From positions 1 through 20,295 of the IMG/VR virus record IMGVR_UViG_3300005960_000010: a stretch of 20,295 nt of DNA; one strand, 5' to 3'. Both the position numbers and the translations under genes were made by a program. Shown here piece by piece: positions 3,182 to 20,295 of the stretch; position 1 is the stretch's first letter, and every line of letters starts with the position of its first letter. Origin of the DNA: a virus. The notes below the pieces were generated by a model that did no database searches, was not told the DNA's origin, and was given only the letters and a program-made list of their open reading frames with translations.

Positions 3182-4699
3182 ATGCCAAATTTAAGTAGAA
3201 CAGATTTAAAAATAGATGTAAGACGAAATCCCGGACCATACGAAGCGGTTGTAAGAGCAGTAATGGACCCGAAATTCCAAGGATCATTAAAAGTTGAATT
3301 ATTGAAAACAACAGAAAGTGGACAAACAGCAATTACAGGACAAATTATAAGAGCAAAATATTTGAATCCTTTTTACGGAACAACACCTGTGTTTGATACA
3401 AATAACAATAAAGATTATAGATACAGCCAAAGCAGTTATGGTATGTGGTTTGTTCCACCTGACATTGGTAATCGTGTAATGGTTATATTTGTGGAGGGCA
3501 ATATTGAAAAAGCATATTGGTTTGGTTGTATTCAGCAAGAAGGTATGAATATACAGTTGCCTGAAGGTAATCCTGCAACCAATTTACATAATTCAACTGA
3601 GGTAGACGAGATTGATAAAAAAATGCCTGTTGTTGAATACAATAAAAAATATAATAAAAACACTCCAAAAAAAGACGCGAACAATTACTTGAAGCCAGTG
3701 CATAATGCCTTTAAGAATATTTTAAACAATCAAGGATTATTGTCTGATGAAACACGAGGTATATCTTCATCATCTGCAAGACGTGAAGTACCAACAAGTG
3801 TATTTGGCATATTAACTCCAGGACCAGTTGATAAAGATTTTGATTCAATTTTCAAACCAACAAAAAATTTACACTTTCAAAGAAAAGGTGGATCGTCATT
3901 TGTTATGGATGACGGTGATCAGACTTTGATTAGAAAAGGTCCTGCAAGTGATACCGCATATGAATATGTTGACAAATCTAAAAATGAAATTGGTGGAGCA
4001 CCGAACAGTCCTTTTAATGAATTAGTAAGATTAAGAACTAGAACAGGTCATCAGATTTTAATGCACAATTCAGAAGATTTAATCTATATTGGAAATGCAA
4101 AAGGGACAACATGGATTGAAATGACAGCAAATGGTAAAATAGATATATTTGCCAATGATTCAATCAGTGTGCATTCTAACCAAGATTTAAATTTTAAAGC
4201 AGAAAGAGATATTAATTTAGAAGCAGGAAGAAGCACAAATATAAAAAGTGCAACCATGCACACAGAATCAAACACATTTGAAATAAAAGCAAGTGCTAGT
4301 GGTTTTGTTACTACTGGTGCGGAATATCATTTAAATGTTGGCACAAACAATTGGTATACACTGGGAGGAGACAGCCATACAACTAAACCTAACGGTGGTA
4401 CGGATTTTGGATGTCCTTCGGATCCGGCACGTACAGGAGCAATAGATTGTACAAATGCAACATCTGTATCTGCGTTGTCAACTCATACATTACCTGGAAC
4501 AACAAGTATTATGAAACGTGTGCCTCAGCACGAACCTTGGGGACACCATGAAAACTTAAATCCTACCAACGTATCTACTACTAACACAGATAGGAATACG
4601 TCAACGGAGATACCTACAAGCACAGCAACAGTAACTAGAGATCCATTCTATTTGAATGTGTATGTTGATCCAGAAGGCAGAGTGGTGGGTGATTTTTAA
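3182..4699 (+). CDS. 5: Central tail spike/hub protein gp5-like (VgrG-like), without lysozyme domain
   Basis: This 505-residue protein would sit at the centre of the baseplate and pierce the outer membrane. Residues 1-115 form the OB-fold: RNPGPYEA, an FQGSLKVELL strand, then YGMWFVPPDIG (from Y86), GNRVMVIFVEG and AYWFGCIQQEGMN, typical of gp5/VgrG N-terminal domains. Residues about 165-260 contain NNYLKP-H-AF, QGLLSDETRGISSSSARRE and VFGILTPGP, a linker I remember from marine phage gp5 proteins. Residues about 285-400 consist of short alternating beta repeats (IEMTANGKIDIF, ISVHSNQDLNFKAERDINLE), the pattern of the trimeric beta-helix. Near residue 446 is RVPQHEPWGHHEN. In T4 gp5 a lysozyme domain of about 165 residues lies between OB-fold and helix; only a linker is present here. 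The ATG is six bases after the previous stop codon, and GAAGGAG at 3162-3168 lies 13 bases upstream. Confidence 0.85.
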   Translation: MPNLSRTDLKIDVRRNPGPYEAVVRAVMDPKFQGSLKVELLKTTESGQTAITGQIIRAKYLNPFYGTTPVFDTNNNKDYRYSQSSYGMWFVPPDIGNRVMVIFVEGNIEKAYWFGCIQQEGMNIQLPEGNPATNLHNSTEVDEIDKKMPVVEYNKKYNKNTPKKDANNYLKPVHNAFKNILNNQGLLSDETRGISSSSARREVPTSVFGILTPGPVDKDFDSIFKPTKNLHFQRKGGSSFVMDDGDQTLIRKGPASDTAYEYVDKSKNEIGGAPNSPFNELVRLRTRTGHQILMHNSEDLIYIGNAKGTTWIEMTANGKIDIFANDSISVHSNQDLNFKAERDINLEAGRSTNIKSATMHTESNTFEIKASASGFVTTGAEYHLNVGTNNWYTLGGDSHTTKPNGGTDFGCPSDPARTGAIDCTNATSVSALSTHTLPGTTSIMKRVPQHEPWGHHENLNPTNVSTTNTDRNTSTEIPTSTATVTRDPFYLNVYVDPEGRVVGDF

Positions 4700-4714: not shown

Positions 4715-5161
4715 ATGTCCACAGAAGAAAAAAAATTGTACAAAGAAGTAACAGTAAAAGCCAACGAGCGACCTCAACTAGAGCCTGCTCAAAGGACTTA
4801 CAGAGGCATCAGTACAGTTAATCCAAACAATACAAGTTTTAAATTATTTGATATAGCACTCATTAAGCAAGATATTATAAATTTGTTCCATATACGTAAA
4901 GGAGAAAAACTAGAAGATCCTGATTTTGGCACAATTATTTGGGATATGGTGTACGAACCATTGACCGAAGAAAATAGAGATTTTATTTCTGAAAACGTTA
5001 CAGACATCATCAACTATGATCCAAGGGTAAATGTTGACGGAGTAACTGTCAGTCAATATGAAAGTGGTATCCAAATAGAGTGCCAACTCACATATTTGAC
5101 TTATAATGTGTCAGAAAATATGAGATTGCGTTTTGATGAGGATGCAGGATTACTGAATTAA
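4715..5161 (+). CDS. 25: Baseplate wedge protein gp25 (GPW/gp25 family, TssE-like)
   Basis: This 148-residue protein has a variable N-terminal 35 residues, then FKLFDIALIKQDIINLFHIRKGEKLEDPDFGT, a WDMVYEPLTEEN segment, a helix, and YDPRVNVDGV followed by beta-strands. This is the order of the GPW/gp25 family, which bridges wedge and sheath and starts sheath polymerisation. The family's conserved EPR motif appears here as DPR at residues 102-104 (5018-5026), a conservative Glu to Asp change. The length is close to T4 gp25 (132 residues) with a short N-terminal extension. It begins 15 bases after the gp5 stop codon; AAAGG at 4698-4702 is a weak ribosome site 12 bases before ATG. It lies directly before gp6, its wedge partner. 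Confidence 0.9.
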   Translation: MSTEEKKLYKEVTVKANERPQLEPAQRTYRGISTVNPNNTSFKLFDIALIKQDIINLFHIRKGEKLEDPDFGTIIWDMVYEPLTEENRDFISENVTDIINYDPRVNVDGVTVSQYESGIQIECQLTYLTYNVSENMRLRFDEDAGLLN

Positions 5162-5202: not shown

Positions 5203-8200
5203 ATGTCCATTACACAAAGACAAAATAGACTATTACTAGCAGAAGATTGGAAACGCATATATCAAAGTTTCCGGAACGCTGAATTCCAAAGTTATGACTT
5301 CGACAATCTAAGAAGAGTCATGATCGCATATCTACGTGAAAATTATCCAGAAGATTTTAATGATTACATTGAGAGTTCGGAGTATCTTGCATTAATTGAT
5401 TTAATTGCCTTTTTAGGTCAAAACTTATCTTATAGAATGGACTTAAATGCTAGGGAAAACTTCCTAGAACTTGCTGACAGAAGAGAGTCTGTATTAAGAT
5501 TAGCAAGATTATTAAGTTATAACGCAACTCGTAATCAGTGTGCAAACGGTTTGCTTAAAGTGGTTGCTGTATCAACTAGTGAAAATGTTATAGACAGTAA
5601 TAATTTAAATCTAGCAAATGCAGAAATAAGTTGGTCCGATTCCTCTAATTCAGATTGGTATGAGCAATTCATAAAAGTATTGAATGCGGCTTTTGGTCCA
5701 AATACAAAATTTGGAAAGCCTATAGCATCGGACACAGTCAATGGAATAACAACAAAACAATATCAAGTACAATCTAGTTCACAAGATATTCCAGTATTTG
5801 GATTTAACAAATCAGTTGATGGAAGAAATTTTGAATTTGAAATAACAAGTGCAGAAGTATCAGATGGATCTATAAAAGAACAAGCACCATTGCCGGGAAG
5901 AAAATTTAGTTTTGTACACAGAGATGATGGTCAAGGTGCATCAAGTGCCAACACAGGATTCTTTGTGCATTTTAGACAAGGATTTTTAGATCAAGGAGAA
6001 TTTAATGTAAGTCTTCCAACACCTAATCAATCTGTAAACATCGATGCTAGAAATATTAATAATACAGACGTTTGGTTATACCAATTGGATGAATTCGGAA
6101 GAGAATCTAAACAATGGACAAAACTTGATTCAGTAGTAGGCAACAATATAATTTATAATTCGTTAAACAAAAATAATAGAACAACTTACAGTACTGTTAC
6201 AAGAACAAGTGACAGAATTGCATTACAATTTTCGGATGGAGTGTTTGGTGAACTTCCACAAGGCGGTTTTAGAGTTTACTACAGAACCTCAGATAATTTA
6301 ACATATTCAATTAAGCCATCAGAATTACAAAATGTACAAATTGATATACCATATGTGTCCGCTTCAGGAAAGACAGAAACTTTAAGTTTTGTTTGCAGTT
6401 TGCAATATACTGTTGATAATGGAACTGCTACAGAAAGCAGTGCAAATATTAAAGTAAATGCACCGACTTCATTTTACACACAAAACAGAATGATTACAGG
6501 AGAAGATTACAACGTTGCTCCACTAGGAAAGAACAGGGAAATAGTAAAAGTAAAAAGCACTAATAGAGTAAGCACAGGTATTTCTAAATATTTTGATTTT
6601 GTAGATGCAACAGGAACAAGTAGTGATATAAATGTTTACGGTAATGATGGTGTAGTATACAGAGAAGACATTAATGATTTAAACACATTTACTTTTTCAA
6701 CTAGAACTGATATTGAAGGAGTTATAATAAACAAAATTGAACCTGTGTTAAGTGAAACAAGATTGTTGAATTATTTTATTAATCAATTTCCTGATGTTTT
6801 GGTTGACGATTTAAATGCAAGTTTTGTTCAGTCAACAAAAGGTAATAATATTAGTACAGGTCTTTTGCAAGATCCAGATAGTTTAAAATATGATGCAGGT
6901 CCTACAACAACCAGTCAATTAAAATACGTAGAAACAGGCGCTTTGTGTAAATTTGAAGCACCAAGCGGTTTTCATTTTATGGCAGACGGCACATTGATGG
7001 CAGGATCAGCCGACCATCCAGGTAGCAGAGAGTACATATGGACTTCAGTGGTCAGCGTTGTCGGTGATGGAAAAACAGTCCAAGCAGATGGAACTGGACC
7101 AATTGCATTCAGTGATGTTATACCAACAGGAGCAATATTGAAAAAAATTAAATCTAAATTTACAAAATTTTTAAGCAGTGGTTTAAAAAATGACATTATA
7201 GATCAAGTATTTGCTTTCAATACTTTTGGATTACGTTTTGATACAGATACAAGAACATGGAAACTAATAAAAGAAACAAACCTTGATGTATATGGTGATT
7301 TTAATATTGGTAAAAGCGGTGACGACAGTAATCAAAGACTAGATTCTAGTTGGATGTTATTGTTCACAAACAATGGCGAAACATACACAATGGAAAACAG
7401 AGGTATGCGTTACGTATTTGAGTCAGATAAAGAAATAAGATTCTTTTATGATTCTAGCAATCAAAATTATAATCCAAAGACAGGAAAAACAAAAAAAGAT
7501 CAAATCACAGTTTTAAGTATCAATACAAAACCAAATTCAACTGTTACACTTACAAATGATGTATCATTTAGTGGAGTAAAAGAATATAGAGAAAATAGTG
7601 GCTATGTTAATAGCAAAAAGTTAGAAGTTGCTTTGTATGACAGTGACCAGGATGGATTTATAGATAATCCTGAAAGTTTTGAATTAATTGTAGACACAAG
7701 CAAATACATATTTCAAAAAATTATTGACTTTAATGATGGCAGTAATGAAATAAATTACGTAGATGCAACATCGGAAAAAATTGTTACTGTGCAAAATGCG
7801 AATAGTGTTGCTCCATTTAGCACGTATGATGATGGCACAATTTTGTATCTCATAGATAGTGATTCGTTTAAAAGTATTGACAAAGTTAACAATGTGTTAG
7901 TCAATAACACTTCTTATATAGCGAAAACAGGTAGAGGTGATTTAAAATTCCATTACATACATTCAGCAGATAGCAATTCACGTATAGATCCAAGTACAAG
8001 TAACATTATTGATTTATATTTGTTGACAAGAAACTATGACAGACAGTTTAGACAATGGTTAATAAATGCAATCCCAACACAACCTAAAACTCCAAGTGCG
8101 GACAGTTTGTACAAAAATTATGGATCCGAATTAGATCAAATTAAAAGTATTTCAGACGAATTAATTTACCATCCTGTATCATACAAAGTTTTATTTGGAA

Positions 8201-8733
8201 GTAAAGCAGATACTTCATTACAAGCAACATTTAAACTTGTGAAAAACAATGAACAAGTGATAAACGATAGCGAATTGAAGGTTAGAGTAATAGATGCTAT
8301 TAACACATTCTTTTCATTGGAAAATTGGGAATTTGGTGACACATTTTATTTTTCAGAATTGAGCACGTATGTAATGAACTTTTTAGCACCAGACCTTGCA
8401 ACGTTTGTAATTGTGCCCAACACTGCATCACAAGGATTTGGAAGTCTGTTTGAAATTAAATCAGAAAGTAATGAAATATTCATAAGCGGAGCAACTGTAG
8501 ATAATGTTGAAATTATAGACGCCATAACTGCAAGTAAATTGAGAGCATCAGGCGAAGTTGTTACGTCTTTTGGCACTGATCAAAGCATAGTAACAAGCAC
8601 AAACACTTCGACTTCGACAACTTCTACAAGTTATTCGAGTTCATCAAGTTCATCGAGTTCATCAGGTTCGTCAGGCAGTAGCGGCGGATCAGGCGGTAGT
8701 TCCGGAGGCGGCGGTGGAGGCTACGGTTACTAA
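5203..8733 (+). CDS. 6: Baseplate wedge protein gp6-like (baseplate J family), enlarged
   Basis: This 1176-residue protein forms the wedge core ring that encircles the hub. The N terminus carries MSITQRQNRLLLAEDW, YDFDNLRRVMIAYLRENYPEDFNDYIESSE, then ALIDLIAFLGQNLSYRMDLNARENFLELADRRESVLRLARLLSY in sequence, a conserved start of marine phage gp6 proteins. A baseplate-J-like stretch near residue 420 reads APTSFYTQNRMITGEDYN, the usual AP-F-tqnR-vT-eDY signature. Residues 813-824 form a textbook EF-hand loop. The C-terminal J-like part (about residues 960-1120) includes YKVLFGS and IDAINTFFSLENWEFGDTFY. Residues from 1128 on are a Ser/Thr then Ser/Gly low-complexity tail ending GYGY. T4 gp6 has 660 residues, so about 500 extra are present, mostly in the middle and the tail. 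An in-frame TAA at 5194-5196 shows that 5203 is the first possible start; it has no close ribosome site. Confidence 0.87.
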   Translation: MSITQRQNRLLLAEDWKRIYQSFRNAEFQSYDFDNLRRVMIAYLRENYPEDFNDYIESSEYLALIDLIAFLGQNLSYRMDLNARENFLELADRRESVLRLARLLSYNATRNQCANGLLKVVAVSTSENVIDSNNLNLANAEISWSDSSNSDWYEQFIKVLNAAFGPNTKFGKPIASDTVNGITTKQYQVQSSSQDIPVFGFNKSVDGRNFEFEITSAEVSDGSIKEQAPLPGRKFSFVHRDDGQGASSANTGFFVHFRQGFLDQGEFNVSLPTPNQSVNIDARNINNTDVWLYQLDEFGRESKQWTKLDSVVGNNIIYNSLNKNNRTTYSTVTRTSDRIALQFSDGVFGELPQGGFRVYYRTSDNLTYSIKPSELQNVQIDIPYVSASGKTETLSFVCSLQYTVDNGTATESSANIKVNAPTSFYTQNRMITGEDYNVAPLGKNREIVKVKSTNRVSTGISKYFDFVDATGTSSDINVYGNDGVVYREDINDLNTFTFSTRTDIEGVIINKIEPVLSETRLLNYFINQFPDVLVDDLNASFVQSTKGNNISTGLLQDPDSLKYDAGPTTTSQLKYVETGALCKFEAPSGFHFMADGTLMAGSADHPGSREYIWTSVVSVVGDGKTVQADGTGPIAFSDVIPTGAILKKIKSKFTKFLSSGLKNDIIDQVFAFNTFGLRFDTDTRTWKLIKETNLDVYGDFNIGKSGDDSNQRLDSSWMLLFTNNGETYTMENRGMRYVFESDKEIRFFYDSSNQNYNPKTGKTKKDQITVLSINTKPNSTVTLTNDVSFSGVKEYRENSGYVNSKKLEVALYDSDQDGFIDNPESFELIVDTSKYIFQKIIDFNDGSNEINYVDATSEKIVTVQNANSVAPFSTYDDGTILYLIDSDSFKSIDKVNNVLVNNTSYIAKTGRGDLKFHYIHSADSNSRIDPSTSNIIDLYLLTRNYDRQFRQWLINAIPTQPKTPSADSLYKNYGSELDQIKSISDELIYHPVSYKVLFGSKADTSLQATFKLVKNNEQVINDSELKVRVIDAINTFFSLENWEFGDTFYFSELSTYVMNFLAPDLATFVIVPNTASQGFGSLFEIKSESNEIFISGATVDNVEIIDAITASKLRASGEVVTSFGTDQSIVTSTNTSTSTTSTSYSSSSSSSSSSGSSGSSGGSGGSSGGGGGGYGY
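7639..7674 (+). other. EF-hand-like calcium-binding loop in gp6
   Basis: Residues 813-824 of the gp6-like protein read D-S-D-Q-D-G-F-I-D-N-P-E. This places Asp at loop positions 1, 3, 5 and 9, Gly at 6, Ile at 8 and Glu at 12, the full consensus of a 12-residue calcium-binding loop. The flanks are strand-like (VALY before, FELIVD after) and not the two helices of a true EF-hand. It is more like the single calcium loops found in extracellular beta-rich proteins. Confidence 0.7.
8596..8730 (+). repeat. Low-complexity Ser/Thr then Ser/Gly tail of gp6
   Basis: The final 45 or so codons of gp6 code first for alternating Ser and Thr, then a run of Ser, then mixed Ser/Gly, six Gly in a row, and YGY. 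The DNA mixes TCG, TCA, TCC, AGT and AGC with GGC/GGA codons. It is therefore not a simple DNA microsatellite but is kept low in complexity at protein level. The GC content is visibly higher than in the rest of the window. The end also carries GGAGG (8716-8720), 15 bases before the next start codon. Confidence 0.85.
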
Positions 8734-8735
8734 AA

Positions 8736-11700
8736 ATGGCATACGATAAAGGTCAAAAAGAAAATAGTCCATTAAATTCTTCAAAAAAAAAGTCTTCCGA
8801 TTTTTTACCGAAGTATTTTAGAACTCCTGTTAACGAAAAGTTTTTACACAGCACAGTTGATCAATTAATCAGCGAAGGACAGACTGAAAAAATAAGTGCA
8901 TACTATGGTAGGAAAGATGCAAAGGCTTTTCAAGCCAACGATACTTATATTGAAGAAGTAAGTGATGATAGACAAAATTATAAATTAGAACCTGCAATCA
9001 CTGCCTTTGATACCTTAGGTAATAATGTTTTTCATAAAGACTATATTGATTACATTAACGCAATAAAAAATCAAGGTGGTAACACCGATGACCATAATAA
9101 ATTAAATGCACAAGAGTATTATGCATGGAATCCTCAAATTAATTGGGATAAATTTTATAACTTTAGAGAATACTATTGGCTACCTTATGGACCTCTGACA
9201 GTTACAGTTACAGGGCAACAACGAAATGTTATATCGACGTATTCAGTAACTTTAGATTCTAGTGAAATAAATTATGCTTATGTGTTCAGTCCAGATGGAT
9301 TGACAAAGAATCCTCCGTTAAAATTATATAGAGGTCAAACATATAAATTTAATATTGACTGTGAAGGAATGCCATTTACTATTAGGACTTCTGTTCTTGA
9401 AGGTGATCAATATCTTTACAATCTAGGTGTTGACCAACAAAAAGTAGAACAAGGCACAATTACTTTTGAAGTATCAGACACGGCTCCTAATACTTTGTAC
9501 TATCAATCCACAAATGATATCAACACATATGGGGAATTTAGAATATACGACATAGAAGAAAACAGTGCAATAGATGTAGACAATGAAGTTGTTGGCAAAA
9601 AAGAATACACATTACCAAGTGGATACAGTTTATCCAATGGAATGAAAGTTAACTTTAGAGGTCAAGTAACACCAACCTCTTACAGTGAAGATGAATATTA
9701 TGTAGACGGTGTTGGATCCGCAATCCAATTGATTAAAGCATCGGAAGTTGAAATCACTGCTGACTACACCACAGAGTACTCAGTACCTTTTGATTCTGTG
9801 AATTTTGACCGTGTAGGTTTTGGAACATCCACAAGTTTTGCAACAACAAAAGATTATGTTGTAATATCTAAAGCATCACCAGACAGGAATCCTTGGAGTA
9901 GATATAACAGATGGGTACACAGAGAAGTTGTAGAAAACTCTGCAAAAATAAATGGTATAGAAACAACAGTTGATCAAAACACAAGAGCCAGAAGACCTAT
10001 TATAGAGTTTGCTTCAGGTTTGAAATTATTTCAATTCGGAACAAAAGCAAAAACCAAAATAAATTTAATTGACAATACAACCTTAGATATTTTTAGTGAA
10101 ATTGAAGGCTCTGCTGGACATTATGTTGACGGTGTACAATTAATTGATGGTATGCGTGTTTTGTTTACAGCAGACACCAGTACCGATGCAAACAATAGAA
10201 TATACAAAGTAAAATTTATAGATTTTTATGACGGGGCCACTACTACAAAACAAATTAGTCTAGTAAAGGAGTCAGACGGAGATCCTGTATTAAATGATGT
10301 ATTGTTTGTTACCCAAGGAAATAAAAATGCTGGAAAAAGTTTTTATTATGATGGCACAAACTGGTTAGAAGGACAAAAGAAAACTTCAGTAAACCAAGCA
10401 CCTTTATTTGAATTATTTGACAATGACGGCATAAGTTTTTCCAATAATACAACTTATCCTTCCATTAATTTTACTGGAAACAAAGTATTTTCCTACAAAC
10501 AAGGAGAAGGTGCCAATGATACAGAATTAGGATTTCCATTATCATATCAAAACGTTGCCAATGTGGGAGACATTTTATTTAATTTTGATCTGTTGAGCGA
10601 ATCTTACTCTTATCAATTAGAAGCCACAGACACAATCACAAGTGATAAAGGATTTTTAAGACAGTACAAAGATCAAAATAATTTCACAGTATTAAATGGT
10701 TGGACAAAAGGCAAAAAAGAATCAAGTCAAAAAGTAATTAGGCAATATGTAGTAACTTCAACGCAAACAAATGACTTTGCTATTGATGTGTATGATAACA
10801 GTGCAAGTTTGACAGATTTAGAAGTTATAGTTATTGTAGACAATGCAAGAAAGAAACCAACCACTCACTACACACTTGTCAATCAAAACGGCACAACATT
10901 TGTGCGTTTCAATTCTGCATTGACTGTTGGACAAAACTTAATCATTAAAACACACAGCGATACAGCAAAAAATACAAAAGGTCATTATGAAATTGCAAGT
11001 AATTTAGAATCCAATCCTTTAAACCAAAATATCAAACAATTTAGTTTAGGAGAAGTAGGAGACCACATTAAAACTATTGTAGAAAACCATCCTGAATGGG
11101 AAGGTGTATATCCAGGCGTAGGTAATTTAAGAGACCTGGGTGAACAAGGTAGATATGCAACAAAATTTGTGCAACACTCTGGCCCAGTCACTTTACCAAT
11201 ATTTTATTTTAATAATAAAGCAAGTAACGTAATAGAAGCAATTAAAAATGCTCAAAACGAATATGGAAAATTTAAAAGAAGATTTATTCAAACTGCTGAA
11301 ACAATAGGTATTGACACAGACACTAGAGATTTATTTGAAAAAATTGTTGCGGAGATAAACAAAGATGCCACAACTGCAACTCCTTATTATTTTTCAGATT
11401 TGTTTGCACATGGTGCCTATGTCCTTACAGAACACAAAGTTATTAATGCAGACAATCCATTTTATCAATTGAATGCAAATTTTGACCTAACAGCACCATC
11501 ATCTAAATCTGTGCTTGTCTATCTAAATGGTGATTTATTAATACAAGGAAAAGATTACAATTTTAACAATCAAGGATTTGTAGCAGTAACAAAAACTATT
11601 GCACTTGATGATATTATTGCTGTGTACGAATATGAGACAACAGATGGTTGTCATGTTCCTGAAACTCCAACTAAATTAGGATTATATCCTAAATACGAAC

Positions 11701-14700
11701 CTAAAATTTTCGATGATACTTCATATCCTACTACTAAAAAAGTTATACAAGGACATGACGGATCAATTACACTAGCATACGAAGATTACAGAGATGATTT
11801 GTTATTAGAACTGGAAAAAAGAATATACAACAACATTAAAGTTCAGTACGATGAAAATATTTTAAGCATAAAAGATTATGTACCTGGTCTTTACAGAAAC
11901 ACTGGCATCACCAAACAGTCTATTGATAATGTGTTGCTTTCGGACTTTGTTGATTGGTTAAGACTTATTGGAAATTTAGACTACACTGACAACGACACTT
12001 ACCTAGACTCAGATAGATTTACATTCAACTATTCAAAGATGTCCGCGCCTACTGGAGAATTATTGCCTGGCTATTGGAGAGCAGTGTACAAATTTGCATT
12101 TGATACAGATACGCCACATTTGACTCCATGGCAAATGTTAGGTTTCACAGAAGAACCTACATGGTGGCAAAGTGTCTATGGTCCAGCACCATATACAAGA
12201 GACAATTTAATATTGTGGACAGATTTACAAGACGGTGTTATTCGTGAGCCTAATAAATCTGCTGTGTTTGTTAAAAAATATGCAAGACCAGACTTATTAA
12301 ATCACATACCGGTTGACAGTGCAGGAAATTTATTAAGTCCGCTGGACAGTAATTTTGCCAAAGAATATGTGACAGAACCTACAAGAAATGATTTTGTGTT
12401 TGGTGATGAAGCACCAATTGAAACTGCTTGGAGAAGAAGTGCATACTATCCTTTTGCACTAATGAGTGCAATACTTTGCAACAAGCCTGCTAAATTTATG
12501 GGACTAGCATTTGATAGATCTCGCATAACAAAAAACAGTGCAGGACAGTTTGTCTATGGCGATACTAACAATAGAATCAGTCCAAGTAATTTAGTATTTC
12601 ATAACACAATAAATGACGCAACAAGATCATTCACTGCTGGGTTGACAAATTATGTGACAGAATACGTCAATGTAGTAGATCTAACTAATCACCAAGACTA
12701 TAAAGAACTTGTGGCAAGTCTACAACCTAGATTAACTTTTAAAATTAGAGGCTACACTTCTAAAGACAAATTTAAAATTAAATTAGACAGCAAAACAACC
12801 ACTGCTTCGTCAGATGTATTTGTGCCTGAAGAAGATTATGAAATTGTATTCAACACTAGTGCGCCAATAGACAATTACACATACAGTGGATTAATAATTG
12901 AAAAACAAGGTGCAGGATACATTATCCGAGGTTATGATAAACTTAATCCACAATTTAAAATTTTAAGTGTGCTTAAGAAAAGTTCTGATCCTAATATTAC
13001 TGTAGGTGGTGTAAGTGCAAAATTTGTTACGTGGGAAGCAGAAAAATATTATACGAAAGGTGCGTATGTAAAACACAACCGTAATTTTTATGTAGTTACT
13101 GAATCTCATACAGCAGGACAAGCCTTTGACCTTTCTAACTTTACAAAAATACCAACTCTACCTATTGAAGGCGGTGTGACTGTACAAATTAGAAAAAATT
13201 TCCTTTCAGATATAGAAATAGTGCCATACGGCACAGTGTACAAAACTGTACAAGAAGTTGCCGATTTCATTGTGGGTTATGATGCATACCTGAAAAGTAT
13301 AGGCTTTGAATTTGAAAATTTTGACGGCAGGGTAGAAGAAGTAGCCAATTGGCGTTTAAGTTTAAGAGAATTTTTATTCTGGAGCACACAGAATTGGACA
13401 GCAGGTGCTGTTATATCTTTAAGTCCTTCTGCTTCTAAACTTGTATTAGATAGTGAATATTCAACAGCGGATAATATGTTTGAATTAAGAAGCAAATATG
13501 AAGTGCTGAAAGAAGACGGCAGAAAAATTGAAAAAGAAAATTTGCGTATTGTGAGGCAAGATAATCATTTTGAAATAATAACAAAAAATACTGTAAATGG
13601 AATTTACTTTGCAAGAATTCCTGTGGTACAAAAAGAACACGTGTGTATATTCAACAACACAACTGTATTCAATGATATAATATATCAACCCGAAGCAGGC
13701 TACAGACAAGAAAGACTTAAAGTTTTAGGATACATTAATGCAGATTGGAATGGTAGTAGCAGTGTACCGGGTTTCATTTTCGATAATGCAACTGTTGAAG
13801 ATTGGGAACCATTTAAGAATTATCCTACATCGGCTCTAGTAAAATATAAACAATATTTTTATTCTGCAAAAAATAGAATTGACGGAACGCAAGAGTTTGA
13901 TGACACAAAATGGGTAAGATTAGATGAAAGACCAGCAACAGAATTAATACCAAACTTTGATTACAAAGCACTACAATTTACAGACTTTTATGATTTGAAT
14001 ACAGATAACTTTGACACAGAGCAACAAAAAATGTCGCAACACTTGTTAGGTTATCAAGCAAGAAATTATCTAGCAAATATTATAAATGATGATGTCAGTC
14101 AGTACAAATTTTATCAAGGATACATCAGAGAAAAAGGTACACGCAACAGTTTAGACAAACTGTTCAAAGCATTAACAAGTGCTGACAAAGAGAGCATTGA
14201 ATTTAATGAAGAATGGGCACTGCGTAAAGGACAATTTGGCGCCAGCGAAGCGTATCAAGAAATTGAATTTACTTTGAATGAGCCTCAGTTTAGACTGAAT
14301 CCTCAACCTATAGAATTGAAAGAAATTGAAGATGCAAACAATATTGATTTGAGGATAACAATTCCTGAAAAAGATGTTTATCTAAAAAGTCCAAACTACA
14401 ACGGAAGTCCGTTTCCAGAAAAATTTATTGACAGTTCTGTTTTACAAAGTGCAGGCTATGTGGATTTAAATGATGTATCTCATAGTGTATTCCAATATGA
14501 TGACTTGCCGACTTTAGATGCAAATACAATTTTTGCTAATCAATACATATGGGTAGGTTATAATAATAGATTGTGGAATGTATACAAAGTATTAAACAGT
14601 GGTGCTACAAGCACGTCAATTACAAAAGCAGACAACATAACATTAGAATTAGACAATGCTGTTACAGTGTCTGCTAATGAATATGTTGTTTTAGTATTTG

Positions 14701-17700
14701 CTGATACAAAATATATTTTAAAAGTAATCAGCAACGTAGGTACAACTTTAGTTGTAGAATTGAATGATGCTGTTCAAGATACAGACACTGCTCAAATACT
14801 AACATTGGTAGAATCAAGACTTGAAAAAGCAACACAAATTAATGATATTGTCTATTCAAGAGGACTTGCAGAAAATGATACTTTCTGGATAGATGAGTCT
14901 GATTCAAACCGTTGGGCAGTTGTTAAAAATAATAGTGTGTACAAATCACATCAAGAAATTAGCAATACAAAAACTACAAATACAAACTTTGGTAAATCTA
15001 TTTCAGCAAATGCAAAAAATACTTTGCTTGCCATTTCCGCTACAGGCGAAGAGGAAGGTAAAGTTTACATCTATGAAAGAGGCACAGAAAGTGGACAATA
15101 CACGTTACTACAAATTATCGAATCGCCAACAGAAAATGTTTTTTCATCCACATCACAAGTTTTCGATACTGGTGTTGAGTATGGAGATAACCTTGCATTA
15201 AGTGATGATGGATTACACTTAATTGTTGGTGTGCCTAATGCAACTAACATAAGAAGTAATTTCAAAGGTTCTTACAATCCTAGCAACAATTACAATGTAA
15301 ATGAAATTGTACAATACAAAGAACAACTATGGCAGGCACTTAACCAAGTGTACAGCAAAGATGATTCTGTAGACTTCACAAGTTTTGATAGTCATGTATT
15401 TGCTTTTGAATCTACTTATGATGCTGATTTATTAGGATATGAAAATATCACTAATTTAGTAATTGGTGATCACGTGTTTGGAAATGTTACAACAGATCAT
15501 ATTTTGATAAGAGCAAACACAGAACAGTTTTTAGGAACAGCAGTTGGTGACAAATTACAATTAAAATGGAACCAATATACTTCTATATTTCCTAATGGAA
15601 GACAACCATTTAATGGTGCTTATGCATCAGCAAACATAGACGCTTCATTTTTAACAGGTGAACATACAATTTTACACAAAGTAGAAAAAATATTTGTTAT
15701 AAATGAAACTGTTAATGATGCAGAAGTTTCTGATATAGTTTATACTGCAACAGGTAATGCTAGAGTAGTGTACAGAAGAAAAGTAGGAACAAAAACACTT
15801 TTATATGTAAATGAAGTTCAAGGAGCATTTGGAGATACTGGTGAATTACTAACAGGTGTTGATTTATCTGTTGGAAATTATTATCTTGCATTTACTGATC
15901 AAGATGAATACAACAGAGGATGGTGGGCAATCACTACACCTTTCAGTCAAACACCAAATCCAACCACAAGTTATCCTACAGATTCTAGTGTGTTGAATGA
16001 AACACTATTTGATGTAAATCCTGCTTTGGTTATAAAAGACATTATTAAAAATCAAGAAAACAGAAGCGTACAAACTTTTGTAAACAGTTTAGATACTATT
16101 CAAGCAAAAATAAGCACACAGCCAGATCATCCAACAGAAGCAAGTGAAATATCTGTGTTGACATACAATCAAGAATTTGTTGTAGCAGGTACAGGAGAAT
16201 TTACAGGATTGAAAACAAGCAAGATGTGGTATGCGAGAGGCACTGCACCTATGTTTACAAATAAAGTGCCATATGACAATGTTGCTGAAACAGAAAATAA
16301 CACTGTAAACTTCTGGTTGAACACTATTAGAGATGAGCAAGGAAATAGATATGATCCAGATGTTTTGGGTTTGACTTTTGCTAAAACAAATAAAAAACAA
16401 AGAATTAAAGATATTTGGAACGGAAAAATATTAGTTCAAGCACAGCCAGACATAAACGGAATATTTTATGTGCCAACAGTTGGTGACACAGTAATAGATG
16501 ATACCACAAGTAACACAGGTGAAGTTGCTTTTGTAAGAACTGTAGGCGCTAATGAAGTTGAATTGTTTATTAAAAACAAATCAGGTGCATTTAGATTAGG
16601 CAGTCAACATTCAGAATCAGGTAACATCACTATTGTTGGCACACCTAATAGATTAATGGGTGCTATATTAAAAACAGAATTTGAAAATCAATCAGCAGGA
16701 TCATTATTTGTATTTGAAGATGCTGAATTTATAACACCGCCTGTAATTAATTCTGTTGTTTACGAAACCAATGGCAAGGAATATTGGTTATGGAATGAAA
16801 TTACAATACAAGGAACTTCAAGGATTGCCAATACTCCTAGCAAAGTCAACAAAGATTGGCAACAGGTTTACAATATACCATTAGGATCTGGCTCAACAAC
16901 CGGAGGCACTAATGAAGGTGCATATGTGATTTATGAAAGAAAACCAGGTGCTCCTTTCAACTACAAAGGATCATTTACAGTTCCTGAAGTAAAATCTAAT
17001 TTAAGATTGGGTTACAAAATTAATTTTGCAACAATTAGTGGACAATACTATGCTTACATTTCTGCACAAGGTGACAATCAAGCAGACAACTTTGGTTCGA
17101 TCCATGTGATCAAATATGAAAACGGCGCATGGGTGTTAGCAAAAAATCCTAACTACAAAGGACCTTTCGATGACAATGTACCGTACTATATTAATGATGT
17201 TGTGTTTAGCGATGGCTATTTTTATCAAGCACAAACGAATGTAGATGCAAATAGTGATTTAAGTTCACAAGCATGGACACAACTTGACTCTAGTGTAGAT
17301 AACAGAAATGTGATTCCTAACACAGAACAAACACTGCATGATAGCAGTGTGTTAGTGCAATACGCATCGGATTCTACGATGCTACAAACAGGCTTATTGA
17401 AATTTGCAAAATCCTCTGACGTATCAAGAAATGGTTCTGTAATTGTAACAAGCAACACTTTTAACACAAATGAAACAAATGTTACAGTATACAGATTGAA
17501 AGACGGACATTATGTATATTCACAAACTTTAACAGCACCAAGCAGTGAAACAACATATGGTGTAGGCGTATCTGTAAGTGATGATGGTACTTTAATTGCT
17601 GTTGGTACTCCTGGACAAGATTTATCAAATGTGAATGCAGGAGTTGTTTACATATACAAACAAGTAAATGGATTGTTTGAATTAAGTCAGACATTAAGAA

Positions 17701-20295
17701 CACCAGAAGCAGGCGCAGAAGACCTATTTGGTAATGAATTGGAATTTGATGGCACAAATTTAGTTGTGGCAACTGCAAAAGGCGTTGGAGCAGTTCATGT
17801 GTTCAATAACATTGACGGTACATTATTATATGGTGAAAAATTTAGTTATTACGCAGACAGTACAATTGACACATTTGGCGACAACTTTGTTGTGAGAAAC
17901 AACCACATTACTTTAGCATTGACAGACTTACAATTAACAGCCGCAGGTGTAGGCACAGTAATTGATTATAGAAGAGGAGAAACAAACAGTTGGAGAAAAA
18001 TTAGAAGTCCTCATGATACAGTTGACTTAGAACAAATTAAATCAGTTTTTGTTTACAACAAAAACACAAATAAAATTTATACAACACTAGATTATATAGA
18101 TGTGTTGCAAGGAAAAATTGCCGGCATAGCCGAACAAGAAATTTATTACAAAACACCTTTTGATCCTGCTGTGTATAATACAGGCACAATAGGAAATCAA
18201 GACGAAACTAATCATTGGATGAGTCAACAAGTTGGTCGTATTTGGTGGGATATTTCTAAAGCAAGTTTCAAATATCCTTATCAGAATGATTTAATTTACA
18301 ATAATAACAACGCAAATATGTTGTTTACAGGATCAACGATTGATGTGTATGAATGGACAGAAAGCATATATCGTCCAAGTCAATATGATCAACTTTCACA
18401 ATCAGCAAATGGTAGTTCATTAGGTATATCAGGAACATCTAAAGATGGAGACAATGCTTATGTGTCATACAATAGATATGATAGTGTTGCTCAAAGCAAA
18501 GTGCCTGTGTATTATTTCTGGGTTAAAAATAAAGAAGAAGCACCTGCTTTAGAAAGTAGAAAATTAAGTGCAGAAAAAATTGCAAAAATTATTGAAAATC
18601 CTAAACAACAAGGAATTAAATTTATACAATTCTATGGACCAAACAAATTTGGATTGGTAAATTGCAATGACTTACTAGATGAAGCAAATACAATATTAAA
18701 TGTAAGATACTGGACAATACCTAAAACTGACATCAACATTCACACAGAATATCAGATAATCACTGAAAATGATGAGAATAGTGTGCCTAACAAAGATTTA
18801 GAATTAAGTTGGATCAACAGTCTTGTAGGTAGTGATACATTTGGAAATTATGTTCCAGACATTGACCTCAATGAGAAAGTTAGATACGGTACAAGTTTGC
18901 GTCCAATTCAAAGTTGGTTTAAAAATAGAATAGAAGCATTGAAACAATATGTTGAAAGAGTCAACAGTGTGTTCTTAGAAAATTTAATTGTGGACACAAA
19001 AGAGATAAGTCCACTGCTTCAATTAGAAACTGCACCTACATTGAATTCAGCATTAATTGACCAAGTTGTAGACAGTGTTGATGATTTAAACTTTATAGGT
19101 GTTGCTAATTTACGCCAAGCAAATTTACAACTTACAATTACAGATTCTAAAATTACAGGTGTAACAATAGTTGACAAAGGTGCTGGATATAAAACAGTGC
19201 CGGCAGTAAACATAATTGGCAAAGGCACAGGCGCACTTATTGGTGTTACTGTCAATACTAAAGGCGAAATAGCAAGTGCCACTGTGTTAAAACAAGGTAT
19301 TGGTTACACTCAAACTACCACCGCGGAAGTAAGAAATTATTCAGTATTAGTTTCAAGCGACTCAACACTAGGCGGAAAATGGGCAGTATATGAATACAAT
19401 GGAACTGACTGGAATAAAACATTAACTCAAAGTATTAACGTTCAATTGTATTGGGATTATGCTGACTGGTATGCAACAGGATACAATCAATTTACTGCAA
19501 TAGACTTCAGTGTGTTACAATCATATGAATTATTAGGATTAGATTGTGCAATTGGTGATGTAGTAAAAATACAGACTGTAGGTTCTGGTGGTTGGTTATT
19601 ATTAGAGAAGACTGCTAATAATGTAACTGATGATTACACGCAAAACTTTAAAACTATTGGAAAACAAAATGGAACAATACAATTAAAAAACAATTTGTAC
19701 GATTTCAGTAACACGTTGGGCTATGAAAGTACAGGTTATGATACATTATTCTATGATGCAATACCAACAAAAGAAACTAGAATTATTATTGAAACAATAA
19801 GAGATAATTTGTTTATTGAAGATTTAAAAGTTGAATACAACAAATTGTTCTTTAGCAGTTTGCGTTATGCATTAAGTGAAAATAAAATTACAGATTTTGC
19901 AATGAAAACAAGTTTTGTTAAAGCAAAACACAATGTTGGTGACTTAAAACAAAAAGTTTCTTTCAACAATGATAATTTGGCAAATTACGAAGATTACATC
20001 AAGGAAGTAAAACCTTACAAAACCAAAATTAGAGAATATGTCAGCACATATGAAAAAGTTGATCCTGCAGATATACAAACTACTGACTTTGATCTTGCAC
20101 CTAAATACGATGCTGATAGAAAAATTAATCCTATAAGAGTTGCAGTCACCGATAATCAAATTGTTGGTGATGTTGATGACACATATCCAGATAAACATTG
20201 GAAAGACAATGTTGGATTTAAAGTAACAGCAATCACAGTTGCTGATGGAGGGTCTGGTTATGGTTTAGATCCTGAAGTTACTATATCAGGTGGTG
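8736..20295 (+). CDS. Giant modular virion structural protein (position of gp7), 3' truncated by window
   Basis: I read this frame line by line from the ATG two bases after the gp6 stop codon to the window edge and found no stop. At least 3853 codons are visible. T4 gp7, the gene that follows gp6 there, has about 1032 residues. Landmarks I recognise from giant structural proteins of marine T4-like phages are NFREYYWLPYGP (residue 142), RNPWSRYNRWVH (384), WLEGQKKTSVNQAPLFELFD (about 545), LPGYWRAVYKFAFDTDTPH (1110), FYQGYIREKGTRNSLDKL (1792), FYGPNKFGLVNC (3299), RPIQSWFKNR (3389) and EVKPYKTKIRE (3757). Repeated modules are four CBM-like units (from residues 1433, 1690, 2176 and 2807), FG-GAP-like propeller blades between 2085 and 3092, and Gly-rich GxGY beta repeats after about 3470. 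There is no signal peptide or membrane segment. Likely roles are baseplate periphery, fibre attachment or surface binding. The gp7 equivalence rests on position only. Confidence 0.82.
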   Translation, partial: MAYDKGQKENSPLNSSKKKSSDFLPKYFRTPVNEKFLHSTVDQLISEGQTEKISAYYGRKDAKAFQANDTYIEEVSDDRQNYKLEPAITAFDTLGNNVFHKDYIDYINAIKNQGGNTDDHNKLNAQEYYAWNPQINWDKFYNFREYYWLPYGPLTVTVTGQQRNVISTYSVTLDSSEINYAYVFSPDGLTKNPPLKLYRGQTYKFNIDCEGMPFTIRTSVLEGDQYLYNLGVDQQKVEQGTITFEVSDTAPNTLYYQSTNDINTYGEFRIYDIEENSAIDVDNEVVGKKEYTLPSGYSLSNGMKVNFRGQVTPTSYSEDEYYVDGVGSAIQLIKASEVEITADYTTEYSVPFDSVNFDRVGFGTSTSFATTKDYVVISKASPDRNPWSRYNRWVHREVVENSAKINGIETTVDQNTRARRPIIEFASGLKLFQFGTKAKTKINLIDNTTLDIFSEIEGSAGHYVDGVQLIDGMRVLFTADTSTDANNRIYKVKFIDFYDGATTTKQISLVKESDGDPVLNDVLFVTQGNKNAGKSFYYDGTNWLEGQKKTSVNQAPLFELFDNDGISFSNNTTYPSINFTGNKVFSYKQGEGANDTELGFPLSYQNVANVGDILFNFDLLSESYSYQLEATDTITSDKGFLRQYKDQNNFTVLNGWTKGKKESSQKVIRQYVVTSTQTNDFAIDVYDNSASLTDLEVIVIVDNARKKPTTHYTLVNQNGTTFVRFNSALTVGQNLIIKTHSDTAKNTKGHYEIASNLESNPLNQNIKQFSLGEVGDHIKTIVENHPEWEGVYPGVGNLRDLGEQGRYATKFVQHSGPVTLPIFYFNNKASNVIEAIKNAQNEYGKFKRRFIQTAETIGIDTDTRDLFEKIVAEINKDATTATPYYFSDLFAHGAYVLTEHKVINADNPFYQLNANFDLTAPSSKSVLVYLNGDLLIQGKDYNFNNQGFVAVTKTIALDDIIAVYEYETTDGCHVPETPTKLGLYPKYEPKIFDDTSYPTTKKVIQGHDGSITLAYEDYRDDLLLELEKRIYNNIKVQYDENILSIKDYVPGLYRNTGITKQSIDNVLLSDFVDWLRLIGNLDYTDNDTYLDSDRFTFNYSKMSAPTGELLPGYWRAVYKFAFDTDTPHLTPWQMLGFTEEPTWWQSVYGPAPYTRDNLILWTDLQDGVIREPNKSAVFVKKYARPDLLNHIPVDSAGNLLSPLDSNFAKEYVTEPTRNDFVFGDEAPIETAWRRSAYYPFALMSAILCNKPAKFMGLAFDRSRITKNSAGQFVYGDTNNRISPSNLVFHNTINDATRSFTAGLTNYVTEYVNVVDLTNHQDYKELVASLQPRLTFKIRGYTSKDKFKIKLDSKTTTASSDVFVPEEDYEIVFNTSAPIDNYTYSGLIIEKQGAGYIIRGYDKLNPQFKILSVLKKSSDPNITVGGVSAKFVTWEAEKYYTKGAYVKHNRNFYVVTESHTAGQAFDLSNFTKIPTLPIEGGVTVQIRKNFLSDIEIVPYGTVYKTVQEVADFIVGYDAYLKSIGFEFENFDGRVEEVANWRLSLREFLFWSTQNWTAGAVISLSPSASKLVLDSEYSTADNMFELRSKYEVLKEDGRKIEKENLRIVRQDNHFEIITKNTVNGIYFARIPVVQKEHVCIFNNTTVFNDIIYQPEAGYRQERLKVLGYINADWNGSSSVPGFIFDNATVEDWEPFKNYPTSALVKYKQYFYSAKNRIDGTQEFDDTKWVRLDERPATELIPNFDYKALQFTDFYDLNTDNFDTEQQKMSQHLLGYQARNYLANIINDDVSQYKFYQGYIREKGTRNSLDKLFKALTSADKESIEFNEEWALRKGQFGASEAYQEIEFTLNEPQFRLNPQPIELKEIEDANNIDLRITIPEKDVYLKSPNYNGSPFPEKFIDSSVLQSAGYVDLNDVSHSVFQYDDLPTLDANTIFANQYIWVGYNNRLWNVYKVLNSGATSTSITKADNITLELDNAVTVSANEYVVLVFADTKYILKVISNVGTTLVVELNDAVQDTDTAQILTLVESRLEKATQINDIVYSRGLAENDTFWIDESDSNRWAVVKNNSVYKSHQEISNTKTTNTNFGKSISANAKNTLLAISATGEEEGKVYIYERGTESGQYTLLQIIESPTENVFSSTSQVFDTGVEYGDNLALSDDGLHLIVGVPNATNIRSNFKGSYNPSNNYNVNEIVQYKEQLWQALNQVYSKDDSVDFTSFDSHVFAFESTYDADLLGYENITNLVIGDHVFGNVTTDHILIRANTEQFLGTAVGDKLQLKWNQYTSIFPNGRQPFNGAYASANIDASFLTGEHTILHKVEKIFVINETVNDAEVSDIVYTATGNARVVYRRKVGTKTLLYVNEVQGAFGDTGELLTGVDLSVGNYYLAFTDQDEYNRGWWAITTPFSQTPNPTTSYPTDSSVLNETLFDVNPALVIKDIIKNQENRSVQTFVNSLDTIQAKISTQPDHPTEASEISVLTYNQEFVVAGTGEFTGLKTSKMWYARGTAPMFTNKVPYDNVAETENNTVNFWLNTIRDEQGNRYDPDVLGLTFAKTNKKQRIKDIWNGKILVQAQPDINGIFYVPTVGDTVIDDTTSNTGEVAFVRTVGANEVELFIKNKSGAFRLGSQHSESGNITIVGTPNRLMGAILKTEFENQSAGSLFVFEDAEFITPPVINSVVYETNGKEYWLWNEITIQGTSRIANTPSKVNKDWQQVYNIPLGSGSTTGGTNEGAYVIYERKPGAPFNYKGSFTVPEVKSNLRLGYKINFATISGQYYAYISAQGDNQADNFGSIHVIKYENGAWVLAKNPNYKGPFDDNVPYYINDVVFSDGYFYQAQTNVDANSDLSSQAWTQLDSSVDNRNVIPNTEQTLHDSSVLVQYASDSTMLQTGLLKFAKSSDVSRNGSVIVTSNTFNTNETNVTVYRLKDGHYVYSQTLTAPSSETTYGVGVSVSDDGTLIAVGTPGQDLSNVNAGVVYIYKQVNGLFELSQTLRTPEAGAEDLFGNELEFDGTNLVVATAKGVGAVHVFNNIDGTLLYGEKFSYYADSTIDTFGDNFVVRNNHITLALTDLQLTAAGVGTVIDYRRGETNSWRKIRSPHDTVDLEQIKSVFVYNKNTNKIYTTLDYIDVLQGKIAGIAEQEIYYKTPFDPAVYNTGTIGNQDETNHWMSQQVGRIWWDISKASFKYPYQNDLIYNNNNANMLFTGSTIDVYEWTESIYRPSQYDQLSQSANGSSLGISGTSKDGDNAYVSYNRYDSVAQSKVPVYYFWVKNKEEAPALESRKLSAEKIAKIIENPKQQGIKFIQFYGPNKFGLVNCNDLLDEANTILNVRYWTIPKTDINIHTEYQIITENDENSVPNKDLELSWINSLVGSDTFGNYVPDIDLNEKVRYGTSLRPIQSWFKNRIEALKQYVERVNSVFLENLIVDTKEISPLLQLETAPTLNSALIDQVVDSVDDLNFIGVANLRQANLQLTITDSKITGVTIVDKGAGYKTVPAVNIIGKGTGALIGVTVNTKGEIASATVLKQGIGYTQTTTAEVRNYSVLVSSDSTLGGKWAVYEYNGTDWNKTLTQSINVQLYWDYADWYATGYNQFTAIDFSVLQSYELLGLDCAIGDVVKIQTVGSGGWLLLEKTANNVTDDYTQNFKTIGKQNGTIQLKNNLYDFSNTLGYESTGYDTLFYDAIPTKETRIIIETIRDNLFIEDLKVEYNKLFFSSLRYALSENKITDFAMKTSFVKAKHNVGDLKQKVSFNNDNLANYEDYIKEVKPYKTKIREYVSTYEKVDPADIQTTDFDLAPKYDADRKINPIRVAVTDNQIVGDVDDTYPDKHWKDNVGFKVTAITVADGGSGYGLDPEVTISGG
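13032..13154 (+). repeat. CBM5/12-like module 1 in the giant protein
   Basis: From residue 1433 the protein reads WEAEKYYTKGAYVKHNRNFY, then VVTESHTAG and FTKIP. The pattern is W/Y, a Tyr-rich turn, G-x-x-V-x-(Y/H), three residues, (F/L)-(Y/W)-x-(A/V), a variable loop, then F or W. It matches the small aromatic carbohydrate-binding fold of chitin-binding type 3 (CBM5/12). The same pattern recurs three more times in this protein. Confidence 0.55.
13803..13931 (+). repeat. CBM5/12-like module 2 in the giant protein
   Basis: From residue 1690 the protein reads WEPFKNYPTSALVKYKQYFY, then SAKNRIDG and DDTKWVRLDE. It has all the aromatic anchor positions of module 1 plus the closing Trp typical of CBM5/12-like folds. 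The usual Gly before the V-x-Y strand is replaced by Ser/Ala. It lies about 260 residues after module 1 and before the conserved EKGTRN region. Confidence 0.6.
14988..15128 (+). repeat. FG-GAP-like propeller blade 1
   Basis: From residue 2085 the segment reads FGKSISANAKNTLLAISATG, then EEGKVYIYER and a QYTLLQIIESP end. This is the blade pattern FG-x-S-(V/I)-S, L-A-(V/I), G-x-V-Y-(I/V)-Y, x-L-x-Q-x-(I/L)-x-x-P of integrin-like propeller repeats. It is the first of seven such units between here and 18011. Confidence 0.6.
15180..15239 (+). repeat. FG-GAP-like propeller blade 2, first half
   Basis: The segment reads YGDNLALSDDGLHLIVGVP. It has the first two strands of a blade (YG, LALS-DG, LIVGVP) but no G-x-V-Y-I-Y continuation. 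Instead it runs into a CBM-like module at 15261. The missing strands appear to be at 16914-16985. Confidence 0.55.
15261..15400 (+). repeat. CBM5/12-like module 3 in the giant protein
   Basis: From residue 2176 the segment reads FKGSYNPSNNYNVNEIVQYK, then EQLWQALNQVY. It shares Y-x(3)-Y, V-x-Y and the LW-x-A strand with modules 1, 2 and 4. The closing Trp is not obvious. It follows directly on the first half of propeller blade 2, so it appears to be placed in a blade loop. Confidence 0.6.
15723..15857 (+). repeat. Small beta module A (GExLxG type) in the propeller insert
   Basis: The segment reads VSDIVYTATGNARVVYRRKV, then TLLYVNEVQGAF and GELLTG. It fits a recurring phage module of the form tGxAxVV, (L/I)YVxxVxGxF, xxGExLxG. 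A second, more divergent copy lies at 16482-16622. The function is unknown. Confidence 0.4.
16482..16622 (+). repeat. Small beta module B (GExLxG type) in the propeller insert
   Basis: The segment reads GDTVIDDTTSNTGEVAFVRT, then VELFIKNKSGAF and a short Gly-containing turn. It shares the spacing of strand, strand and SGxF turn with the module at 15723-15857. Sequence identity is low, so the relation is tentative. Confidence 0.35.
16914..16985 (+). repeat. FG-GAP-like propeller blade 2, second half
   Basis: The segment reads EGAYVIYERKPGAPFNYKGS and ends in a TVP turn. It supplies the G-x-V-Y-x-Y strand and the Y-(K/Q)-x-S/T-x-x-x-P end that are missing after the half blade at 15180-15239. 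Together the two halves make one normal blade. Confidence 0.5.
17007..17150 (+). repeat. FG-GAP-like propeller blade 3
   Basis: The segment reads LGYKINFATISGQYYAYISAQ, then ADNFGSIHVIKYENGAWVL. It keeps the (F/L)G start, the AYISA strand and the G-x-I-H-V-I-K-Y strand of the blades. It runs directly into CBM-like module 4. Confidence 0.5.
17154..17294 (+). repeat. CBM5/12-like module 4 in the giant protein
   Basis: From residue 2807 the segment reads YKGPFDDNVPYYINDVVFSD, then GYFYQAQTNV and a closing AWTQLDSS. It is the best match to the family pattern here (Y-x-x-N-D-V-V, FY-x-A, closing W). It sits between propeller blades 3 and 4. Confidence 0.65.
17403..18011 (+). repeat. FG-GAP-like propeller blades 4 to 7
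   Basis: Four blades follow one another: blade 4 at 17403-17540 (FAKSSDVSRNGSVIVTS, VTVYRLKDG, SQTLTAP), blade 5 at 17556-17708 (YGVGVSVSDDGTLIAVGTPG, GVVYIYKQ, LSQTLRTPE), blade 6 at 17727-17860 (FGNELEFDGTNLVVATAKG, GAVHVF) and blade 7 at 17874-18011 (FGDNFVVRNNHITLALTD, GTVIDYRR, WRKIRSP). Blade 5 is the clearest copy. I do not see the integrin-type D-x-D-x-D-G calcium loop in these blades. Confidence 0.65.
19152..19334 (+). repeat. Gly-rich GxGY beta repeats
   Basis: Two units lie here in tandem: ITGVTIVDKGAGYKTVPAVN, then IIGKGTGALIGVTVNTKGEIA and SATVLKQGIGYTQTT. The pattern (V/I)-x-x-x-G-x-GY-x-x-x-P-x-V/I is a common short beta repeat of phage fibre-like proteins. A third unit begins at 20217 (AITVADGGSGYGLDPEVTIS) and is cut by the window end. 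Confidence 0.65.
20217..20295 (+). repeat. GxGY beta repeat at the window edge
   Basis: FKVTAITVADGGSGYGLDPE, followed by VTISGGG, is the cleanest copy of the repeat at 19152-19334. It comes about 85 residues after the conserved EVKPYKTKIRE motif. In related giant proteins, as I recall, that motif precedes a repeat-rich C terminus, so more copies probably follow beyond the window. Confidence 0.6.

Follow-up and report, generated by a model that had tools for sequence, protein, structure and literature searches.

Several described systems come close to the baseplate locus analyzed here. In alpha-I integrins, an I domain is inserted between blades 2 and 3 of the propeller (PMC10659397). The phiKZ protein gp131C (PDB 4GBF) contains a seven-blade propeller at the edge of the baseplate, for which a receptor function has been proposed, and phi11 Gp45 is a five-blade receptor-binding propeller in the baseplate host-recognition device (PMC4901313). 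Evolved Dit proteins are conserved tail-tip proteins with a CBM insertion, which is proposed to bind host glycans (PMC8540738). The giant protein CBB_236 was found in virions by mass spectrometry with 21 unique peptides (PMC5259590). For most giant baseplate proteins in large phages, no function is known.

The window, an IMG/VR virus record, spans 20.3 kb. Its largest ORF likely encodes a seven-blade, integrin-like propeller, one blade of which appears to be split by a CBM-like module that is itself split by a large block. The genes of the window are as follows.

251-553, + strand, gp53-like gene
555-3176, + strand, virion protein gene
3182-4699, + strand, gp5-like gene
4715-5161, + strand, gp25-like baseplate wedge gene
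5203-8733, + strand, gp6-like baseplate wedge gene, immediately upstream of the giant ORF
8736-20294, + strand, giant baseplate ORF of 3853 residues, 3' end open (off the contig), PHROG_10938 virion structural protein

All on the + strand, these genes form a baseplate cluster resembling that of T4, in the order gp53-gp5-gp25-gp6-giant. The coordinates in the preliminary description were right for the giant ORF (8736-20294, +), for residue 2085 (nucleotide 14988) and for the start of the EGAYVIYER motif (16914). The giant belongs to PHROG_10938, whose profile it matches with 1095 bits over the backbone. Complete giant ORFs of propeller-bearing relatives are about 4300-5585 aa long. CBB_236 is a propeller-less homologue and adjoins gp6 and gp25 in phage CBB. 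Based on position, synteny and the proteomics of this homologue, the giant is a baseplate protein, with virion presence shown for the propeller-less CBB_236 only. The giant directly follows gene 6 in the baseplate cluster, the position of T4 gp7. Homology to gp7 was rejected, with an hhalign probability of 0.1% for each of both flanks. Searches of the PDB retrieved no match with the whole-protein sequence or the C-terminal profile, and the N-terminal profile retrieved weak chitinase-type CBM matches only.

The surroundings of the propeller show additional features. In the gp5-like hub protein (3182-4699), the hub/lysozyme PHROG match is limited to the N-terminal 200 residues, and no lysozyme domain was matched. 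The last 45 or so residues of the gp6-like protein (8595-8733) form a tail rich in Ser, Thr and Gly. The giant contains GxGYxxxP-type repeats at 19050-19340 and 20240-20294, and similar repeats occur in Phosso and between blades 4 and 5 of the relative L015. The backbone outside the propeller carries two more CBM5/12-like stretches, at 13029-13151 (residues 1432-1472, weak) and 13803-13925 (residues 1690-1730). A close relative of the window (L007) encodes a 577-residue ORF after the giant (L007:16693-18423); four relatives that are more distant lack it there.

Residues 2085-3090 of the giant ORF comprise, according to sequence and prediction, seven FG-GAP/integrin-type blades. Blades and inserted modules are arranged as follows, with residue numbers in brackets. 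Blades 1 and 3 to 6 were delimited by the AlphaFold2 model and profile comparison, and the halves of blade 2 by the model and a join test.

14916-14963, + strand, two strands ahead of blade 1 (2061-2076; AlphaFold2/DSSP), possibly serving ring closure or belonging to a neighbouring domain
14988-15122, + strand, blade 1 (2085-2129)
15174-15245, + strand, blade 2, strands A and B (2147-2170)
15246-15368, + strand, CBM5/12-like module 1, first half (2171-2211), lying in the loop between strands B and C of blade 2
15369-16829, + strand, nested insert of 487 residues (2212-2698), inside CBM 1
15675-15881, + strand, small beta module A, in the nested insert (2314-2382)
16431-16655, + strand, small beta module B, in the nested insert (2566-2640), homologous to A
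16830-16883, + strand, last strands of CBM 1 (2699-2716, KDWQQVYNIP)
16911-16991, + strand, blade 2, strands C and D (2726-2752)
17007-17138, + strand, blade 3 (2758-2801)
17151-17291, + strand, CBM5/12-like module 2 (2806-2852), in the D-A loop between blades 3 and 4
17394-17531, + strand, blade 4 (2887-2932)
17565-17699, + strand, blade 5 (2944-2988)
17727-17843, + strand, blade 6 (2998-3036)
17883-18005, + strand, blade 7 (3050-3090), placed by model and position, without sequence support of its own

The Pfam domain FG-GAP_2 scores above its curated cut-off of 23 bits in the window (28.5 bits over the stretch as named, 33.8 over a slightly longer one) and matches all 12 relatives scanned. 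Profile-profile comparisons identify blades 1, 4, 5 and 6 as mutually homologous (98.4% each for 1-5 and 4-5). Blade 3 is weaker with 76% to blade 5, and blade 7 reaches at most 11%. The AlphaFold2 model of residues 2045-3115, built on a 47-row alignment, has a mean pLDDT of 84.6 and a pTM of 0.71. The model predicts four strands in each of seven blades, with blade 2 composed of two strands before and two after the interruption. The seven-blade FG-GAP-like propeller proposed in the preliminary description is borne out, with blade 7 assigned by model and position. As a natural stand-in for the deletion suggested there, the relative L024, which lacks the nested insert, was folded and is predicted to form one propeller (pLDDT 84.1, pTM 0.83). 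All 50 best Foldseek matches of the L024 model in the PDB are integrin alpha heads (best E 2.2e-13), from which we infer a closed ring. The window model retrieves integrins over about 400-470 columns mixed with unrelated long multi-propeller proteins, hence not cleanly integrin. DxDxDG motifs, which mark the calcium sites of integrins, are mostly missing (7 matches in 47 segments), and we therefore term the propeller integrin-like in fold rather than an integrin homologue in detail. A tblastn search of annotated phages with the propeller gave no match at 1e-5 and weak matches only at E up to 10, and no propeller was confirmed in bacterial and archaeal genomes. Nor did any phage isolate turn up that carries the propeller.

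Blade 2 is likely split by an insertion of 555 residues, with the break at 2170 and resumption at 2726. The joined blade (2147-2170 plus 2726-2752) aligns over its full length to blade 5 (47 columns, E 1.1e-15). It scores above either half alone and above all 92 control joins to other slices. The closest control join reached 65.0 compared to 67.8 for the true join, a narrow margin due to the first half of blade 2 holding most of the signal. Together with the two predicted strands on each side, this agrees with the split inside blade 2 that had been described from the sequence.

The interruption itself appears to consist of two nested insertions, a CBM in blade 2 that is cut by the block of about 487 residues, since the last strand of CBM 1 (W2708) stands after the block. 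Insert-bearing members have the first half of CBM 1 before the block and the last tryptophan strand (NxDWxQVY) after it. CBM-like stretches were detected with a dedicated HMM at 2175-2202 (cut) and 2806-2852 (complete), and the two modules are homologous (97.7%, E 2e-12, profile-profile). In a completion test, the 22-residue second half was slid along the whole block in 47 members, at about 500 positions each, and each join received a score from the profile of the other CBM, which is uninterrupted. The expected strand after the block was the top completion in 22 of 47 members, compared to about 1.6 expected by position alone, which is our own estimate for members that are related and not independent. 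In the window's own sequence, the expected strand ranked 102 and was not best, so the completion of CBM 1 in the window rests on homologues. The joined CBM 1 of the window aligns to 13 natural uninterrupted modules with small gaps only. L024 has no counterpart of window residues 2212-2698 and carries an uninterrupted CBM5/12-like module in blade 2. The Pfam domain CBM_5_12 scores 18 bits in the window, below the curated cut-off of 26.2, which is passed by L015 (35.4) and L080 (39.4), and matches six of 12 relatives at E 1e-3. The CBM profile also matches two chains of phage tail spikes with solved structures, 8fqc and 9rkv (E about 5e-5). The preliminary description correctly recognized the second CBM-like module between blades 3 and 4 and two small beta modules in the insertion, which form a homologous pair (97.4%, E 1.3e-11, profile-profile). 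Its single block starting with a CBM has to be replaced by the nested order of blade, CBM and 487-residue insert.

Relatives carry insertions of at least 20 residues in the propeller after positions 2082, 2104, 2134, 2143, 2797, 2935, 3016 and 3067. According to the AlphaFold2 model, all of these fall in loops and never inside a strand. Several of the extra loop insertions are CBM-like (L080, L111, L013). Within the block, insertions of this size occur after 2537, 2637 and 2662. Display of all modules on one face of the propeller is suggested by eight of nine loop sites in the window's family, which are B-C or D-A, but L139 seemingly has C-D insertions, and we do not claim it.

Homologue alignments revealed gain or loss of the insert, as the preliminary description had anticipated, and relatives fall into three states. 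The majority carry CBM and insert, 14 distinct relatives carry an intact CBM without insert, and five carry neither. The five bare propellers, without CBM 1 and block, are L220, L228, L201 and the distant L139 and L142. A scan using the C-terminal backbone, which is independent of the propeller, recovered 80 loci, 44 with insert, 23 without, 10 partial (two of them bare, most truncated at a contig end) and three without match (all short ORFs). A flank tree of 66 rows, with 46 of its 63 inner branches starred, requires four changes of the insert label, of which at least three are required by starred branches alone. L024 and ten other insertless rows sit inside a clade holding insert-bearers. 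The bare L220, L228 and L201 are nested in clades of CBM-only forms, and L139 and L142 branch off first. A CBM-only form is found on a contig of 330 kb (L194), hence at least some bearers are jumbo phages. Other jumbo phages have the propeller site empty or otherwise filled (RaK2-like, Vibrio 2.275 and PA5oct-like phages). RaK2-like phages lack the whole propeller, and in KP13-7 backbone matches stop at 1995 and restart at 3107, with 77 residues in between. Phosso (L033, about 13940-18500) has about 1,500 residues at the propeller site without a credible Pfam match.

We suggest that the propeller most likely serves as a peripheral baseplate platform displaying glycan-binding modules, with a probability of roughly 55%. 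Propellers and inserted CBMs are tied to host recognition in other baseplates, and integrins carry an inserted ligand-binding domain, which makes such a display the most likely role. The giant, associated with the baseplate wedge, holds the propeller in one loop of its backbone. By sequence and prediction, CBM5/12-like and small beta modules are spliced into the propeller loops, with one module spliced into another in blade 2. The propeller most likely sits at the outside of the baseplate and would hold the modules towards the cell envelope. There the CBM-like modules, many copies with one set for each wedge, would attach loosely to glycans of the cell surface, either ahead of the fibres or while these attach. 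Of the scaffold with binding modules proposed in the preliminary description, the scaffold part stands, namely an integrin-type propeller split in blade 2 with modules on loops, and the displayed binding is the interpretive part.

The main evidence against display is the conservation of the block. Mean pairwise identity of the nested insert is 0.388, about equal to the 0.36-0.54 of the blades and unlike a fast-evolving receptor tip. This fits a structural role, in which propeller and insertions would hold neighbouring wedges, the sheath or tail fibres, with CBM-like modules reused as spacers or docking points. Such modules are present in other tail proteins, and tail collar or fibre genes come after the giant in relatives. 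However, many lineages lack the insert or even CBM 1, and RaK2-like phages are without the whole propeller, which argues against a universal assembly role. Measured by identity to the window, the propeller region (28-36%) is also more diverged than the N-terminal backbone (42-48%). We consider a structural role possible but do not favor it over the display of glycan-binding modules.

How the layers arose is a matter of history that fits either function. Repeated gain of the nested insert by recombination in the CBM loop would account for insert-bearing and insertless sisters (L172/L208) and for the changes on the tree, the direction of which the tree does not fix. Yet the insert is homologous and sits at a single position wherever it occurs, and the deepest branches within the clade of 61 belong to insert-bearers; about three losses with the CBM kept are simpler. 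Repeated gain is thus unlikely, and layer-by-layer loss of an ancestral insert is the simplest reading. A more speculative and rather doubtful extension is a stepwise, reversible system, in which lineages add or peel recognition layers (the propeller, the CBM in blade 2, the block in the CBM) at fixed splice points while the underlying fold stays intact. If true, nested layering would be a way of changing baseplate host recognition unlike fibre-tip swapping. Natural lineages missing each layer provide a ready-made deletion series for what each layer contributes to recognizing the host. Only one blade attains Pfam significance in the window itself. Even so, a mere chance resemblance to a propeller, or an ORF produced by frameshift or chimeric assembly, is very improbable, since the same architecture recurs in dozens of independent contigs (segments 27-98% identical) and is backed by confident AlphaFold2 models and integrin matches.

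Among open-licence papers, no paper was found to combine FG-GAP, beta-propeller, baseplate and phage. The elements are known and, as far as searched, no description exists of such nesting within a giant baseplate protein. The preliminary description knew of no such arrangement, which holds for this protein in the papers searched but overlooks close precedents in evolved Dit, phiKZ gp131C and alpha-I integrins. One giant baseplate protein can be resolved into a conserved backbone and a removable integrin-like platform carrying modules inside modules, a clear case of a domain in a domain in a domain. phi11 Gp45 differs by its five blades and by being a trimeric, separate receptor-binding protein. 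Evolved Dit differs by the belt/galectin scaffold of siphophages instead of a propeller, and no insertion within the CBM is reported in PMC8540738. Compared by description, phiKZ gp131C shares a seven-blade propeller in a jumbo-phage baseplate protein, but its propeller is the C-terminal domain and PMC4901313 mentions no nested module insertion. The PHROG_10938 giant virion proteins of RaK2-, PA5oct- and Atu_ph07-like phages, including CBB_236, share a backbone that is homologous on either side of the propeller and the same place after gp25 and gp6. Unlike the window, the five tested (KP13-7, Vibrio 2.275, Paride, SCTP-2 and Phosso) match neither FG-GAP nor CBM at the propeller site. Alpha-I integrins differ in that here the insertion lies inside blade 2, contains nested modules and occurs in a propeller mostly without DxDxDG calcium motifs. 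They share the matching fold, an FG-GAP-type propeller of seven blades into which, close to blade 2, a domain is inserted; in integrins this domain binds the ligand.
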